DNA of 64,000 nt from Bdellovibrio sp. ZAP7 (GTDB lineage: Bacteria; Bdellovibrionota; Bdellovibrionia; Bdellovibrionales; Bdellovibrionaceae). Shown piece after piece: positions 45,425-52,094 of the stretch. Made by a program: the position numbers and the translations under genes. The stretch is from contig NZ_CP030082.1 in the NCBI RefSeq assembly GCF_006874645.1, positions 372,001 to 436,000 on the forward strand, written 5' to 3'. The notes beneath the pieces were generated by a model, which did no database searches, was not told where the DNA came from, and saw only the letters and a list, made by a program, of their open reading frames with translations. Each line of letters starts with the position of its first letter. Within the stretch, counting starts at the first letter, position 1.

Positions 45425-46333
45425 ATGGGAAGTGCAGAGTTAATGCTGATTTTGGGTCTGCTCCTAGCGGGAGTAGCGGTCTTCCTATTCGTAAATTCGA
45501 TCTTTGCAAGCAACAACGATAAGCAACAATTATCCTGGGCTAACAATGACGAGCCCGTTAAATCCAAAAATCCAATTATCAACTTTTCTCGTCCGTTGGT
45601 GCATCAATTCACTTTGCAACATGCGCTTAGAATTCGCAGTGAATCTTATCGCAAAAAAGTGCGCAAGTTCATTATGACTTCGGGTCTGTCACAGGAATTG
45701 AACGAAGATGAATTTATCGGTTTGCAGCTCCTGTGGGGCGTGATGTTCCCGATCTTTTTGTTGATCATGAACTTCTCCCTGCAGTTGGAACTACCACTTG
45801 CAGGTTGTATCGGGGTGGGTTTGATAGGTTTTTATCTGCCACAAATCCACGCCAAAGGTGAGAAAAAGAAACGTGAGCTTTCGGTTCGGGGTGATTTGCC
45901 ATTCTTTATCGATCTGTTGGCTTTGTCTGTGGAAGCGGGTTTGGACTTTTTCTCGGCGATCCAAAAAATCGTGGATAAGGCTCAAGGTACTAAGAGTGTC
46001 CTGGCTGATGAGTTCAACATTGTTCTGAAAGATATCAAAATCGGTTCTTCCAAATCCCAAGCCCTGAAAGAAATGGGCGAGCGCTTGGATATGAACGAGA
46101 TTACCAGTTTCGTAGCGGTCCTGATTGATGCCGAAGCGACCGGGGCAAGTATTTCCCAGGTTTTGAAAGATCAATCTGTGCAAATGCGTTTGGAGCGTTT
46201 CGTGCGTGCGGAAAAAGCCGGTGCACAAGCGTCTCAGGCAATTTTGATTCCGTTGATGTTATTTATTTTACCAGCCGTGTTCATTATGGTTTTTGGGCCG
46301 GTAGCGATTTCATTTATGTATGGACCTAAATAA
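45425..46333 (+). CDS. tadC: TadC-like type II secretion system F-family protein
   Basis: A 302-residue inner-membrane protein with a T2SF/GspF domain (about residues 155-290: ELSVRGDLPFFIDLLALSVEAGLDFFSAIQKIV) and membrane segments near 5-25, 105-140, 265-295. This is the TadC side of the TadB/TadC pair that forms the inner-membrane platform of Tad (Flp) pili. No tadA, tadB or flp lies in the window, so it may act with a locus elsewhere or have another role. It is the first gene of a tightly packed operon; the DUF192 ATG starts at its last stop base. Confidence 0.88.
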   Translation: MGSAELMLILGLLLAGVAVFLFVNSIFASNNDKQQLSWANNDEPVKSKNPIINFSRPLVHQFTLQHALRIRSESYRKKVRKFIMTSGLSQELNEDEFIGLQLLWGVMFPIFLLIMNFSLQLELPLAGCIGVGLIGFYLPQIHAKGEKKKRELSVRGDLPFFIDLLALSVEAGLDFFSAIQKIVDKAQGTKSVLADEFNIVLKDIKIGSSKSQALKEMGERLDMNEITSFVAVLIDAEATGASISQVLKDQSVQMRLERFVRAEKAGAQASQAILIPLMLFILPAVFIMVFGPVAISFMYGPK

Positions 46334-46683
46334 TGATGAAGAAGCTTGAGAACTCGACAACTAAAACCACTTTGATCCCGAATCTCGAGGTCGCAGATGA
46401 TATGCGCACTCGTGGCGTGGGTCTTTTGGGTCGCAGTTCACTGGCGGAAGATCAGGCTTTGTGGATTCTAAGATGCAATAGCATCCATACGTTTTTCATG
46501 AAGTTCGCAATTGATTGTGTATTTGTAGATAAGAATTTGAAAGTGAAAGCTGTCTATAAAGATGTGAAACCCTGGAGGCTCTTGCTTCCGGTATGGGGTG
46601 CCAGATCTGTATTTGAGATGGCTTCAGGTGTAAGCAGCAAGTTGAACATCAGAGTGGGAGATCAGCTGAATGTGGGCGCTTAG
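46333..46683 (+). CDS. DUF192-family protein
   Basis: A 116-residue DUF192 domain: LEVADDMRTRGVGLLGRSSL, ALWILRCNSIHTFFMKFAID, CVFVDKNLKVKAVYKDVKPW and FEMASGVSSKLNIRVGDQL cover the family. Most relatives are exported; this one has no signal peptide, so it is cytoplasmic or attached to a partner. Role unknown. Its first base is the last base of the tadC stop codon, and its 3-prime end overlaps the first FHA gene by 14 bases, so translation is coupled on both sides. Confidence 0.88.
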   Translation: MMKKLENSTTKTTLIPNLEVADDMRTRGVGLLGRSSLAEDQALWILRCNSIHTFFMKFAIDCVFVDKNLKVKAVYKDVKPWRLLLPVWGARSVFEMASGVSSKLNIRVGDQLNVGA

Positions 46684-48295
46684 AATCTTGTCCGGCCCTC
46701 AAGCCGGCGGCATTTTAGAGCTAAAAATGGGGAGAAACCTAGTCGGTCGCTCTCCGCATTGTGATATTAAAATCACAAGCCCGGGCGTGTCCAAAGAACA
46801 CAGCGAGATCGTAGTTTACAGTGATAAAATTGTCGTAACTGATTTGAAGTCCAGCAACGGAACATATTTAAACGGTGTGCGCATGCAGACTGGGTTGATG
46901 CGTTTGGGTGATAAGCTGGGCATTCATGATGTCCTGGTGGATATTATTCCAGCTCCAGAAAAAAGAGCGCAAGCTCCAGTGATGCAGCAACCGGGTTACG
47001 GTATTCCGCAAGGAATGCCAATGCCACAAGGAATGCCGCAGCCGATGGGCATGCCTCAGCCCATGGGTGCTGGTCCTGTGGGTCCTGCTCCAGAAGCAGC
47101 GCCGGCTTACAGTCCCGGTGGTTTGAAAGCAGTTTGGGAAAGATTCCTGGAATATTTAGATCGCGTGGCTTTGCCTGGCGTTTATAAAATTCCAACATAT
47201 CTGGAATTCCGCATGGTTCTTTTGGGCTTTGTGGTGCTGTTTATTTTTGTCACGACGTTGCTCGCGATGATTCCAATGGTGCAAATCACTCGTGCCAGTA
47301 TCATCACGGAAAGTAAACGTCGTGCAGCGTCGATTGCCAGAACTTTGGCGACGATCAATCAATCTGCTCTTTTGCAGAACAGTTATTCTTCTTTGACAAC
47401 AAATCAGGCGGAAGCTGAAGACGGTGTTAAGCAAGTTCTGATTGTGCAACAGTCAGATGGTATGATCCTCGCTCCAGCCACTCGTGCGGGAACAACCCCA
47501 GATTTGCCATTCGTACACCAGGCCCGTCGTGAAATGCGCCCGGAATCCGTCGAAGTCGACTCGACCACGATCGGTGCAAGTTTCCCTATCGGTCTATTTG
47601 ATCCAAATACCGGAGAACAATCGGTAAAAGCTCACGCGATTGTCCTTTATGATATTGGCAGCATGGCTTTTGATGATGGTCGCGCGATCAGTTTGTTCAT
47701 GCAGACGCTGGTGATTGCAACATTGGTGGGTTTAATCTTGTACTTCTTTATGTACAAACTGGTTGAGTATCCTCTGGTGACATTGAATCAACAGCTCGAT
47801 ACCGCTATGAGAGAGAAAACAGATAATACCAGCGTGGACTTTATGTTCCCGCCACTTCAAGCATTGATTGGAAATATCAATAGTCTGCTTACACGCTATA
47901 TTCACGGTGAAGGTGCAGGTGCTGAAGGTGGAATGGGTAGTTTCGTCAATAAAGATGGCGAAGCTGAAAATCTGGTTCAATTGATCGGATTCCCTTCGAT
48001 TGCGATTTCTAAAGACGGTCGCATTATGGCGGGAAGCTCTTCATTCGGACAAGTGGCCCGCACGGAGGTTGCGCAACTGATCGGACAGCAATACCAAGCG
48101 ATTCCGGATGTGGCTCTTCAGCAAAATATAGATAGCCTTATGCAAAAGACCCGCGAAAATGCCCGCGTGATTCATACGGATCAGCTGGAGTTCAACGGTC
48201 ACCCATGTGTTTTAAGTTGTCAGGGAATGTCTTCACAGCCAAATGATATCGATTACTTTGTAATTACGATCTCTCCGGCTGAGGGAGGATCCTAA
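46670..48295 (+). CDS. FHA-domain membrane sensor (FHA, linker, TM, TM, PAS-like)
   Basis: A 541-residue protein. FHA domain residues about 1-95 with all key positions: Gly26-Arg27, Ser41 and His44 (GVSKEHSE), Asn63-Gly64 and Asn68-Gly69 (SSNGTYLNG); it should bind phosphothreonine peptides in the cytoplasm. A Met/Pro/Gln linker (about 105-150) follows, then a membrane segment (about 181-203), a periplasmic domain (about 205-335), a second segment (about 342-362), a short helical linker and a PAS-like cytoplasmic domain (about 433-541). The order FHA outside and PAS inside joins two sensing modules. Second FHA protein starts at its last base. Confidence 0.9.
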   Translation: MWALRILSGPQAGGILELKMGRNLVGRSPHCDIKITSPGVSKEHSEIVVYSDKIVVTDLKSSNGTYLNGVRMQTGLMRLGDKLGIHDVLVDIIPAPEKRAQAPVMQQPGYGIPQGMPMPQGMPQPMGMPQPMGAGPVGPAPEAAPAYSPGGLKAVWERFLEYLDRVALPGVYKIPTYLEFRMVLLGFVVLFIFVTTLLAMIPMVQITRASIITESKRRAASIARTLATINQSALLQNSYSSLTTNQAEAEDGVKQVLIVQQSDGMILAPATRAGTTPDLPFVHQARREMRPESVEVDSTTIGASFPIGLFDPNTGEQSVKAHAIVLYDIGSMAFDDGRAISLFMQTLVIATLVGLILYFFMYKLVEYPLVTLNQQLDTAMREKTDNTSVDFMFPPLQALIGNINSLLTRYIHGEGAGAEGGMGSFVNKDGEAENLVQLIGFPSIAISKDGRIMAGSSSFGQVARTEVAQLIGQQYQAIPDVALQQNIDSLMQKTRENARVIHTDQLEFNGHPCVLSCQGMSSQPNDIDYFVITISPAEGGS

Positions 48296-49398
48296 TGGGA
48301 GCAGCTCCTAAGGTGAAAGATGCATTGAAGTTTGATATTGAAGTGGTGAAGGGTCCGCACACGGGGCTTCGTCTTTCATTTGCAAATGGCACTGCCACTG
48401 TGGGGCGTGGTCCAGAGAATGATATCGTTTTGGCGAATGATCCACGTATCAGCCGTCAGCACGCTGAAATCCGTCAGCGTGGAAATGAATTCCTGATCGT
48501 CAATTTAAGTCAGAAAAACTTCGTCATGCTCAATGGCGAAAGTATTCAGTCCGAGATTTTACATAAAGGCTCGGTGATTCAAATTGGTGATTCTGAAATT
48601 CGCTTTACACCAGAAACAGTTGCTGCAGAGCCCGTCATGCCGGTTATGCCAGCAGCTCCGCCAGTGCCAACTCCGTCAGCGTCGGTATTAAAACCGGTTG
48701 CACCGACAGGTTTGCCACAAATGCCAGCGGCGGGAATGCCAAGCATGCCACCAGGTGGTGTAAGACCGCAAATGCCGATGGGTCATCCGCAGGGAGTGGG
48801 TTATCAGCAGCAAGCGCCTCGTCCAGCAGCACGCCCTGCCAGCAATGGCGGTCTGCTGTCGAATCCGAAGGCGCGTTTTTACGGCATCATCGTGATTTTG
48901 GGTTTGATCGGTTGGTATCTGATGACGCCAACTAAGAAAGGCAAAGATCAAAATGCCTTCCGTACGTCTGCGATCAGTATGCAAGATGTAGCAGAGGCGG
49001 AAAAGCGCACTCAGGAATTGATGAATATTAAAAAGGAAAAGTACGACTCCGTTCAATACAAGCGAGCGCAGGAAAACTTTATCCGTGGTTTCCGTGACTT
49101 CCAACAGGGCCAATACGCACGTGCGCGTGAGGCGTTCCAAGTGGTATTGAATCTGGATCCAGAAAATGAACTGGCAAAACGTTATTACCATCTTTCGAAA
49201 ATCAAATTCGATGAGTTGGTGAAATTCAATTTGATCCAGGGCAGTCGTTATCGTGAAAAGAAAAACTGGCGTATGTGCCAGTCGAATTATTCTAATGTGA
49301 TTACAATGTTGCAGAACCGCAGAGATGATCCAAGTTATAAAGAAGCGAAGCAGTTTTACGAGGAATGTACTTTAAATCTGGAAGGAGGACGACTCTAA
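48295..49398 (+). CDS. FHA-domain single-pass membrane protein with TPR-like tail
   Basis: A 367-residue protein. FHA domain about residues 14-105 with Gly37-Arg38, Ser53 and His56 (RISRQHAEI), and Asn80-Gly81; phosphothreonine binding is expected. A Met/Pro/Gln/Ala linker (about 110-190) leads to one membrane segment (about 193-211, GIIVILGLIGWYLM), then a helical periplasmic tail (about 235-366) with TPR-like pairs such as FQQGQYARAREAFQVVLNL. Such tails usually bind protein partners. Start overlaps the stop of the preceding FHA gene (TAATG), and the next gene starts two bases after its stop. Confidence 0.9.
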   Translation: MGAAPKVKDALKFDIEVVKGPHTGLRLSFANGTATVGRGPENDIVLANDPRISRQHAEIRQRGNEFLIVNLSQKNFVMLNGESIQSEILHKGSVIQIGDSEIRFTPETVAAEPVMPVMPAAPPVPTPSASVLKPVAPTGLPQMPAAGMPSMPPGGVRPQMPMGHPQGVGYQQQAPRPAARPASNGGLLSNPKARFYGIIVILGLIGWYLMTPTKKGKDQNAFRTSAISMQDVAEAEKRTQELMNIKKEKYDSVQYKRAQENFIRGFRDFQQGQYARAREAFQVVLNLDPENELAKRYYHLSKIKFDELVKFNLIQGSRYREKKNWRMCQSNYSNVITMLQNRRDDPSYKEAKQFYEECTLNLEGGRL

Positions 49399-49399
49399 T

Positions 49400-51415
49400 A
49401 TGGCACATCTTATAGTTCGTCTTCGTGGAAAGACAATATATAACATGCCTCTGGAAGAGGGCCGTTCGTATGTGGCAGGCCGTAAAGAGGACTGTGACAT
49501 CGTTCTGCAACCTGAAAAAGGCATTTCCCGTGAGCACTTTAAAATAGTCTCTGAAAATGGTCAGTGGACTTTGCAAGTGATTTCTCGTTACGGCGAAGTG
49601 ATGGTGAATGGTGAGCCGACTCAGCAAGTGACTTTGGACCATGGCTTTACTTTTACCATTGCACCTTATGAGTTTGATTTCCTGATGTCTTCAGCAATGG
49701 CGCAACCAGCTCCTGCGATGGAATCCCCATCGCATCCTGAGGGCAGTTACTTGCCTGCAGTTCAAAGTGGAACTTCAGGTGGCGAGGAAAAAACCATTGT
49801 CGGGGCGGCTCCGACAGCGGCCTATATTAAAATTGTTGATTCCAATAGTGACGCGAAAGAATTGATCCGTTTGGATGAGGGCGATTCCTGGATTGCAGGA
49901 CGAGATCCTTCTTGTCATATACAGATTCGTGACCAACGTGTCAGCCGTCGCCAATTTGAACTTCGTCGCAATGGCAATCAATACCAAATTATTGATTTGG
50001 GCAGTGTGAATGGAACTTTGGTTAACGGGAACCCGATTTCATCCACAGATTTGACGAATATCCGCAGTGGCGATGCCATTACGGTTTTGGATAATTATTT
50101 ATTCTTTGAATTGCACGATGCTCACTTCCAAAGTCGTTTGGATATGGTGAAGGTGGCTCCGCCAAATCCTTTGGTGCAGATGTCGCATAATCCAGTGCCT
50201 GCAGAGTATGATCAGCAATACGGCATCGCTCCTTATCAACAGCAAGGTGGCGTGCCGATGCAGTATCAGGGTTACGGTCAAATGCCGGGCCCTGTGGCGC
50301 CAGCTCCTGAAGTAAAGCCTAAATTCGACTTCCAAAAGCATCGTCCAAAATTGATGATCGGTGCAGTGGCGTTGTTAGTTGTCGTGTATCTGGTTAAAGG
50401 TGGCGATAAAGATACAGCTCCAGTGGGTGCACCGGGCACAGTGGCAGCTCCGGGTTCTCCTCAGGAAGTATTTAATAAATTGAAGCCTGAACAGCAGTCT
50501 TTGATCCGTCAACGTTATAAAGATGCCAAAAATCTTTATATGCAAGGTAAGTATCAATTGGCTCAGGATGAAATCGTTAAGATTCACGAATTGGTTCCTG
50601 ATTACGAAGACACGAAAGAGATTCAACGCTTGGCTAAAGAGGCGATTTATTTAGAGCAGGAAAAAATTCGTATTCAGCAGATCGAAGCTGCCAAAGCTGA
50701 GGCTGAGCAAAAAATTTTGGCTCAAACAGCTATCTGCCAAAAAAAGCTCAATCCAAATATCACGATGGATGAGATGGAGAATTGCTTAACATCTGTTTTG
50801 CAATTCAATCCGGATCATCCGAAAATCCTGGATTTGAAATCCCAAGTGGAAGCTTTGACGACTGCTCGTGAAGTGAAGAAAGCAGCCAATGCGGAATATG
50901 CGGCAAGGGTTGCGCGTCTAAAAGCGATCTATGACAAGGCTCAAGCCCTCCATAAAGTGGGCAAAAAGCCTTTGGACATCATTGATGCTTATTCGAAGGT
51001 GACAAGCTCATCACTCCCAGATCCGAATGGTTATAAGGGGATGGCGGGAAGAAGTATCGCTTCCGTTCGTAATCAGATGAACCAAAAGATCAAAGGCAGT
51101 TTGGAAAAAGCTGACAAGTTCTACCAAAATGGAAATCTTAAAGATGCCATCGGTGCCTTAAGAGAAGCGAAAGCTATTGATCCAGAAAATCCAGAGGTCC
51201 CACCAAGAATCGAAAAGATGGTGTTGGAACTTCGTAAGCAAATGATGGCTCTTTATCAAGAAGGTATTCTTGAAGAAAGCTTTGGTAACGTCGATGGTGG
51301 CGAGTCCAAAGCTGGTGCCAAAGAGAAATGGAAGAAAATCCTGGAGCTCGATATTTCTGACGGCGAGTACTATAAGAAAGCCTATATCAAGCTTAAGAAA
51401 TACGGAGCTATGTAA
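49400..51415 (+). CDS. Double-FHA membrane protein with TPR-like tail
   Basis: A 671-residue protein. First FHA residues about 1-95 with Gly27-Arg28, Ser43 and His46 (ISREHFKI) and Asn70-Gly71. Second FHA about 145-240 (WIAGRDPSCHIQI, VSRRQFELRR, GSVNGTLVNGNP) where the usual His is Gln, so binding there may be altered. A Pro/Gln/Met linker, a membrane segment (about 317-333), and a long helical tail (about 350-671) with TPR-like units follow. Together with the two other FHA proteins it may form a scaffold. Coupled to the pseudophosphatase gene by one intervening base. Confidence 0.9.
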   Translation: MAHLIVRLRGKTIYNMPLEEGRSYVAGRKEDCDIVLQPEKGISREHFKIVSENGQWTLQVISRYGEVMVNGEPTQQVTLDHGFTFTIAPYEFDFLMSSAMAQPAPAMESPSHPEGSYLPAVQSGTSGGEEKTIVGAAPTAAYIKIVDSNSDAKELIRLDEGDSWIAGRDPSCHIQIRDQRVSRRQFELRRNGNQYQIIDLGSVNGTLVNGNPISSTDLTNIRSGDAITVLDNYLFFELHDAHFQSRLDMVKVAPPNPLVQMSHNPVPAEYDQQYGIAPYQQQGGVPMQYQGYGQMPGPVAPAPEVKPKFDFQKHRPKLMIGAVALLVVVYLVKGGDKDTAPVGAPGTVAAPGSPQEVFNKLKPEQQSLIRQRYKDAKNLYMQGKYQLAQDEIVKIHELVPDYEDTKEIQRLAKEAIYLEQEKIRIQQIEAAKAEAEQKILAQTAICQKKLNPNITMDEMENCLTSVLQFNPDHPKILDLKSQVEALTTAREVKKAANAEYAARVARLKAIYDKAQALHKVGKKPLDIIDAYSKVTSSSLPDPNGYKGMAGRSIASVRNQMNQKIKGSLEKADKFYQNGNLKDAIGALREAKAIDPENPEVPPRIEKMVLELRKQMMALYQEGILEESFGNVDGGESKAGAKEKWKKILELDISDGEYYKKAYIKLKKYGAM

Positions 51416-51416
51416 A

Positions 51417-52094
51417 ATGAAACTTCAGGAACGCTCTTATAGCAGCAAGATCATGCGCCCTAAACCACAGATCCATGTGGAAGAGGACGGGTCATTGATC
51501 GTTGTCGTGACGGCTTGGGGGCAACCTGAGCACGGGGAGCGAGCATTAACTGAAGTAGTGAAATACGTCAGTGCCGCCAAAGCAGACGTCGAAGTGACGT
51601 CGCCATTTGAATTCCTGACTTGTATCAGTGATGAAGCGAACTATGTACGCACAGCATTGATGATAGCAAATGATGCCCTTTACAGAGGGGAAAATCGCAA
51701 AGAATATGCTTCTGGTGTGGAAGTTCTGGCATTATTCAGAAGAGGCTCGCAGGTGGCATGGGCTCAAGTCGGAGCTCCCAGCATTTTCGTACAAAGACTG
51801 AATCAACGTGTGCAGCCTTTAAGTATAGCGAGTGATCTGGCCTCTGAACTTCGTGATGGGGACAGTCTGCCGCCGCTTCCAGCTCAGCTTTTGGGATTGG
51901 ATCCAACGGTGAATATCCAGACGGGACACACTCACGTAAAAGAGGGCGACAAGTTAATCCTGCTGGCAGGAACATCTGTAGCGACCGCGTTGTGGGGTCT
52001 GCAATCCAATGAAACTGATTTGAATCTTATTACTCAGTCGATGGTTCAAGAAGAGCCTGAATTGCCATTCTGGCTGGGACTGATTGCCGTTTAA
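51417..52094 (+). CDS. PP2C-fold pseudophosphatase
   Basis: A 225-residue protein from the ATG at 51417. Its strand order follows PP2C: DGSLIVVVTAWGQPEHGERA where FVVADGMGGH is usual, VEVLALFRRGSQVAWAQVGAPSIFV where VGDSR is usual (GAPS at 119-122), and LILLAGTSVATAL where CSDGL is usual. All three metal-binding aspartate positions are changed, so phosphatase activity is not expected. It could bind phospho-ligands or FHA partners instead. It is the last gene of the TadC/DUF192/FHA operon and stands tail-to-tail with the sulfatase-like gene. Confidence 0.7.
   Translation: MKLQERSYSSKIMRPKPQIHVEEDGSLIVVVTAWGQPEHGERALTEVVKYVSAAKADVEVTSPFEFLTCISDEANYVRTALMIANDALYRGENRKEYASGVEVLALFRRGSQVAWAQVGAPSIFVQRLNQRVQPLSIASDLASELRDGDSLPPLPAQLLGLDPTVNIQTGHTHVKEGDKLILLAGTSVATALWGLQSNETDLNLITQSMVQEEPELPFWLGLIAV

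Follow-up and report, generated by a model that had tools for sequence, protein, structure and literature searches.

A conserved operon of TadC and FHA-domain proteins as the probable platform and regulator half of a split Kil-like Tad machine in Bdellovibrio

Introduction

The Kil system of Myxococcus xanthus is a Tad-like system that is needed for predation (Seef 2021, PMC8460266; PMC12075869). How the Tad machine of a predator is switched on at contact with the prey is a question posed by the discoverers of Kil, who pointed to the FHA proteins. In Bdellovibrio bacteriovorus HD100, the genes Bd0470-Bd0475 have been published as an operon (Duncan 2019, PMC6561027; Abulude 2025, PMC12034629). 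According to these reports, a transposon mutant of the TadC gene (Bd0470::tn) shows no attachment to, killing or rounding of the prey, and a Bd0474::tn mutant keeps attachment and has lost killing and rounding (PMC6561027, PMC12034629). The HD100 operon literature also describes binding of Bd0474 to Bd0075 by two-hybrid and a predicted pair of Bd0473 with Bd0475 (ipTM 0.60). According to the literature, Bd0470 and bd0108-0121 are down-regulated in host-independent strains, and Bdellovibrio has flp1/flp2 but no TadV.

Here, we analysed a stretch of 64,000 nucleotides, below called the window, which covers positions 372001-436000 of the 4.12-Mb single-contig genome of Bdellovibrio sp. ZAP7. The operon in it is real and important to predation, but both the operon and the type of machine to which it belongs were known before. 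A previous annotation of the same stretch, here called the sequence-only reading, had stated that the arrangement matched no system that could be named, a view that we abandon because the genes belong to a Tad-type machine and the operon of HD100 has been published with predation phenotypes.

Results

All six genes lie on the same strand and are closely joined (Table 1), as the sequence-only reading had described. TadC and DUF192 overlap by 1 base, DUF192 and FHA1 by 14 bases and FHA1 and FHA2 by 1 base, and gaps of 1 base separate FHA2 from FHA3 and FHA3 from the PP2C-like gene. Hydropathy analysis bore out the membrane segments that had been claimed for the three FHA proteins and showed them in TadC as well, with three TM-like segments in TadC, two in FHA1 and one each in FHA2 and FHA3. 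The Pfam profiles T2SSF, DUF192 and FHA were matched as foreseen, and PP2C_2 was matched below its threshold (21 bits, cut-off 24). The FHA and phosphothreonine theme was retained, with the count of domains corrected to four FHA domains in three proteins. Pfam also identified the TPR tails on FHA2 and FHA3. FHA1 consists of a cytoplasmic FHA domain, two transmembrane segments that flank an extracytoplasmic stretch of ~130 amino acids, and a HAMP/PAS-like C-terminus; its matches in the PDB, to a VicK-like protein and to PAS domains, are weak. A promoter search identified no FliA-type promoter in the window. AlphaFold2 models made without alignments were too poor to be used and were discarded (mean pLDDT of 39 for the PP2C-like protein and 42 for FHA1).

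Table 1. Genes of the operon, and domains and a candidate site within them, with positions in the window.
Feature	Position	Strand	Evidence
TadC/CpaH-type inner-membrane platform protein, orthologue of Bd0470	45425..46333	+	PF00482, 60 bits
DUF192 protein	46333..46683	+	PF02643, 71 bits; 56/59 loci
FHA1, orthologue of Bd0472	46670..48295	+	PF00498, 56 bits
FHA domain of FHA1	46739..46915	+	Pfam
FHA2 (FHA, one TM, TPR-like tail), orthologue of Bd0473	48295..49398	+	PF00498, 61 bits; TPR_2; alignment A4
FHA domain of FHA2	48397..48588	+	Pfam
FHA3 (two FHA, one TM, long TPR-like tail), orthologue of Bd0474	49400..51415	+	PF00498 x2, 108 bits
First FHA domain of FHA3	49469..49660	+	Pocket Asn missing throughout phylum sample
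Thr132 codon in EEKTIVG, candidate phosphosite in linker 5' of second FHA domain of FHA3	49793..49795	+	
Second FHA domain of FHA3	49889..50083	+	Pfam
PP2C-like putative pseudophosphatase, ATG start, orthologue of Bd0475	51417..52094	+	PP2C_2, 21 bits; motif table

Six T2SSF matches were identified in the genome, and these come from two double-domain PilC/GspF genes, TadB and the TadC of the window. The only two single-domain T2SSF genes are the window TadC and the TadB gene at C1:127564-128463 on the same contig (C1), and both platform proteins of a Tad system are present. TadB adjoins a TadZ-TadA fusion, a secretin and CpaB in a cluster with no TadC, the TadA/CpaF ATPase, the CpaC secretin and CpaB being located at C1:128-133 kb. 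The Tad genes are found in two clusters of one contig, at 417 kb and 128 kb, which are ~288 kb apart. The TadZ-like and TadA-like ATPases form a single frame of 739 codons (C1:about 128466-130674; L013/L014), and long fused TadZ/TadA frames of 618-730 amino acids recur across the phylum. The N-terminus of the ATPase in this genome has a P-loop and is TadZ/ParA-like, and the FHA search gave no match at this protein.

Since the sole TadB/TadA cluster has no TadC, the TadC of the window is its missing partner. Judging from gene content, the Tad machine is split and this operon contributes the TadC that the other cluster lacks; TadB and TadC are predicted to pair, and the identity of the operon as the TadC and FHA half of a Tad-type machine is solid. 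The sequence-only reading had correctly reported that there is no TadA or TadB in the window, and both are present elsewhere in the genome, where the lone TadB and the TadA-type ATPase strengthen the proposed tie to a Tad-type machine. Its idea of a separate system fails, because the lone TadB/TadA has no partner other than the window TadC and the six genes are contiguous with Tad genes in distant families.

A gene for an RHS-repeat/DUF6531 protein directly follows TadB in this genome (L013:15880-17532, corresponding to C1:125879-127531) and also follows TadB in three distant families (L106:7745-9454, L107:7798-9483 and L109:5436-7133; Pfam-confirmed in two). Its counterpart in the hit locus is Bd0109, and the protein looks like a standing member of the Tad locus.

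TadC matches were recovered from 191 of 192 genomes in the phylum, and the gene neighbourhood was sampled in 59 loci from about 18 families. FHA1, FHA2 and FHA3 are consecutive and follow TadC in 57 of these loci, and the other two consist of TadC alone. DUF192 is present in 56/59 loci and PP2C in 51/59, where some of the PP2C gaps are contig ends. Because the same order recurs in 57/59 loci phylum-wide, the operon is beyond chance, and an arrangement by chance was ruled out; the expectations that the six genes are a co-transcribed-looking set and stay together in distant genomes were borne out. This phylum-wide fixed gene order is a new detail. A congeneric genome that we take to be that of B. 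bacteriovorus HD100 (L085) has the same six genes and a TadC that is 89% identical. The only interruption seen was a three-gene ABC-transporter set on the opposite strand between TadC and DUF192 (L083:10920-13398).

In at least five distant families (f10, f13, f17, f18 and f22), the six-gene cluster runs on into CpaB-CpaC-CpaE/F-TadB, and pilin-like, leader-peptidase and TadE-like genes lie in between in those contiguous loci for which the ORFs were inspected. The genes identified in distant relatives include pilin-like ORFs with GQAxxEY and a peptidase of PF01478. No continuation into Tad genes was seen in the window's order, nor in the genomes of f9, f12 and f14 that were extended downstream (three of f14). 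The sequence-only reading had held that Tad genes beside the cluster in all relatives would make this an ordinary Tad locus, and such an arrangement was found in the five families and not in all relatives. A single locus in distant relatives is the equivalent of both Tad clusters of Bdellovibrio, and we infer, from gene order, that a single contiguous locus was ancestral and later split.

For comparison with Kil, protein S was used as the probe to reach four myxobacterial genomes. The best TadC in these genomes is found in the order CpaB-TadB-TadC-FHA-FHA/TPR-XseA, and the FHA/TPR protein two genes after it ranked first against the FHA3 profile in three of the four genomes. A profile of the FHA3 tail, searched in a small database, indicated that this protein has the tail too. 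A second myxobacterial cluster contains an FHA protein, a secretin, an FHA-ATPase and a double-FHA protein, and neither PP2C nor DUF192 was found in either Myxococcus kil cluster. The arrangement agrees with the Kil system as published. Several FHA proteins beside Tad platform genes, and Tad genes distributed over two clusters, are likewise present in our genome, and we use the term Kil-like rather than strict Kil member because its own ATPase is without an N-terminal FHA domain.

By eye, the large subunit of exonuclease VII, XseA, was seen near the Tad/Kil genes in Myxococcus and in one family of the Bdellovibrionota (L137:14145-15857 and L109:8033-9337). Also by eye, a Ser/Thr kinase-like gene was seen in Myxococcus (L141:16845-19367), at a distance of ~10 kb from the kil cluster with the secretin and the ATPase, and this gene is a possible candidate for the writer of the FHA proteins.

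A profile of the PP2C-like family matches PP2C crystal structures at 1e-32. None of the four metal-ligand positions (NED, DG, DG, DN) is present in the window copy, and the first Asp (NED) and the Asp of DGxGG are kept in 0/28 copies from the window's order. Outside the order, however, the first Asp is kept in 22/23 copies and the second in 23/23, and all four positions are present in 10/23, including 7 of the 9 copies of family f14, although even these copies have a degenerate GDSR motif. Because the ligand motifs are lost inside the order and present outside it, an active-looking operon phosphatase appears to have decayed in the window's order and yet been retained. The pseudophosphatase of the sequence-only reading is thus supported for the window's order, but not for the phylum. 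The apparent change from phosphatase to pseudophosphatase in the Bdellovibrio order is a new detail. The window also contains, at positions 434-1159, a canonical PP2C that has every catalytic motif and that the sequence-only reading had passed over; it is a candidate for the true phosphatase of the order.

All 57 copies of FHA1 have the R/S/H/N residues of the phosphothreonine pocket, and nearly all copies of FHA2 have them too. In FHA3, besides the loss of Asn from the first domain (Table 1), Gln replaces His in the second domain in 16/29 copies from the window's order. The linker 5' of this second domain is hypervariable with one exception, an acidic-x-Thr-x-hydrophobic motif that takes forms such as EEKTIVG, DEKTMIG, DGATKVF and ESTRVF. 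The motif is found in 45/56 FHA3 orthologues as compared with 10.4 +/- 2.8 after shuffling, a post hoc statistic that gives an effect size and no clean probability because the motif was defined after inspection of the linkers, an earlier placement of the segment having given 12/56. There was no excess in the distal FHA3 linker (4/37 versus 4.3 shuffled) and no comparable excess in the linkers that follow the FHA domain in FHA1 and in FHA2, their highest count being 12/57 versus 6.1 +/- 2.1. Thr132 is an invariant column, and the only Thr among the invariant columns, in the 13-sequence alignment A1. We therefore consider it a candidate phosphosite in FHA3, which is another new detail drawn from sequence conservation, and it is also possible that the motif is structural, beside the first strand of the FHA domain, instead of phosphorylated. 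The genome contains three Pkinase genes, all of which lie elsewhere, and none was found near the operon.

Several other identities for the FHA proteins were rejected. Their scores were 43.9 and 65 bits for TagH of the T6SS (cut-off 120), 28.6 bits for SctD of the T3SS (TIGR02500; cut-off 86) and 69.2 bits for the GarA/OdhI family (NCBIfam OdhI; cut-off 200), and the match to GltG was weak and below the cut-off.

Discussion

We favor, as the probable interpretation, that the operon encodes the platform and regulator half of a split Kil-like Tad machine (type IVc pilus) of predatory bacteria, equipped with a phosphothreonine switch. TadC would pair with TadB, and both would be powered by the TadZ-TadA ATPase, whose gene lies at a distance of 288 kb. 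FHA1-3 would be located in the inner membrane with their FHA domains in the cytoplasm, with extracytoplasmic TPR tails on FHA2 and FHA3 and with FHA1 being receptor-like through its extracytoplasmic domain and HAMP/PAS-like end. Upon contact with the prey, a Ser/Thr kinase encoded elsewhere may phosphorylate the Thr in the FHA3 linker (T132 here), as in GarA/OdhI, and the FHA domains of FHA1, FHA2 or FHA3 could then bind the phospho-Thr, so that the machine is gathered at the contact site. The ancestral operon PP2C would have removed the phospho-mark, while the PP2C-like protein of the Bdellovibrio order is probably a pseudophosphatase that docks on or shields a partner such as FHA2.

The phosphothreonine switch on Tad assembly may thus have been inherited along with an active phosphatase that turned pseudophosphatase in the Bdellovibrio order. 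We infer the phosphorylation, the identity of the kinase, the gathering through FHA domains, the receptor role of FHA1 and the role of the pseudophosphatase. The full version, a phylum-wide switch in which a distant kinase would place the mark on the FHA3 Thr, FHA1-3 would read it and PP2C would erase it, with the pseudophosphatase guarding or presenting the mark in the Bdellovibrio order, is a tentative proposal, and we consider it rather doubtful in all its parts. Several observations speak against a switch, namely that there is no kinase near the operon, that the pocket Asn is missing from the first FHA domain of FHA3 and the His often from the second, that the linker motif is post hoc, that the kil clusters are without PP2C and DUF192, and that DUF192 has no role in the model. 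If the full version is true, commitment triggered by contact would be hard to reverse in the Bdellovibrio order. With this operon, the question of the switch is narrowed to a single candidate phosphosite, the four FHA domains and a putative phosphatase-turned-pseudophosphatase.

The same machine could also be built with the FHA proteins as a scaffold, forming a ring or cage around TadC independently of phosphorylation, with the PP2C-like protein serving a structural purpose only. The cytoplasmic domain of SctD in the T3SS is FHA-like, and the FHA domains examined here also match Pfam Yop-YscD_cpl. The absence of the pocket Asn from one FHA domain and frequently of the His from another, the dead phosphatase in the window's order and the TPR tails all fit a scaffold. 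It is nevertheless difficult to reconcile with an R/S/H/N pocket that is invariant in all 57 copies of FHA1, with a Thr motif conserved inside a variable linker and with an active-looking PP2C in the same operon of other families, and we think that a scaffold of this kind is unlikely.

The two remaining alternatives would detach the FHA proteins from the Tad machine altogether. The separate envelope complex of the sequence-only reading, sharing or borrowing TadC, is strongly disfavoured: TadC does lie apart from TadA/TadB throughout the window's order, as it does in the three genomes of f14 that were extended downstream, but there is no other TadC for the only TadB/TadA, the Tad locus is contiguous in five distant families, and Myxococcus provides the Kil parallel. 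It seems equally improbable that the FHA module acts chiefly in the control of a different contact machine, such as the type IVa pilus or the gliding motor, and is merely co-transcribed with TadC. A link of this kind is suggested by an FHA domain in the gliding protein GltG (weak match) and by a protein of the hit locus that has been connected to type IVa pili (PMC3818213), yet the family matches are weak and under every cut-off, whereas the position of the module is fixed to Tad genes in two phyla.

Our preferred interpretation, a Tad half with a phosphothreonine switch, has elements in common with several known systems. As in GarA/OdhI, with which FHA similarity is also seen, an FHA domain is preceded by an acidic Thr motif, but those proteins are soluble metabolic inhibitors and the phosphosite in FHA3 is a candidate. 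The threonine phosphorylation pathway of the T6SS (PpkA-PppA-Fha/TagH) also has FHA and PP2C proteins encoded with a contact-dependent machine, but here there is no kinase in the operon and the machine is Tad, not T6SS. The operon of HD100 is orthologous with the same six genes, although from a different genome, and the accessible part of the HD100 paper lists Bd0475 as a 'hypothetical protein' and gives neither its PP2C origin and active-site loss nor the Thr motif in the linker. The likeness to Kil consists of split Tad clusters, a TadB/TadC platform and over-represented FHA proteins, with an FHA/TPR homologue two genes after TadC in Myxococcus, whereas the N-terminal domain of the ATPase is FHA in Myxococcus (KilF) and TadZ/ParA-like in Bdellovibrio.
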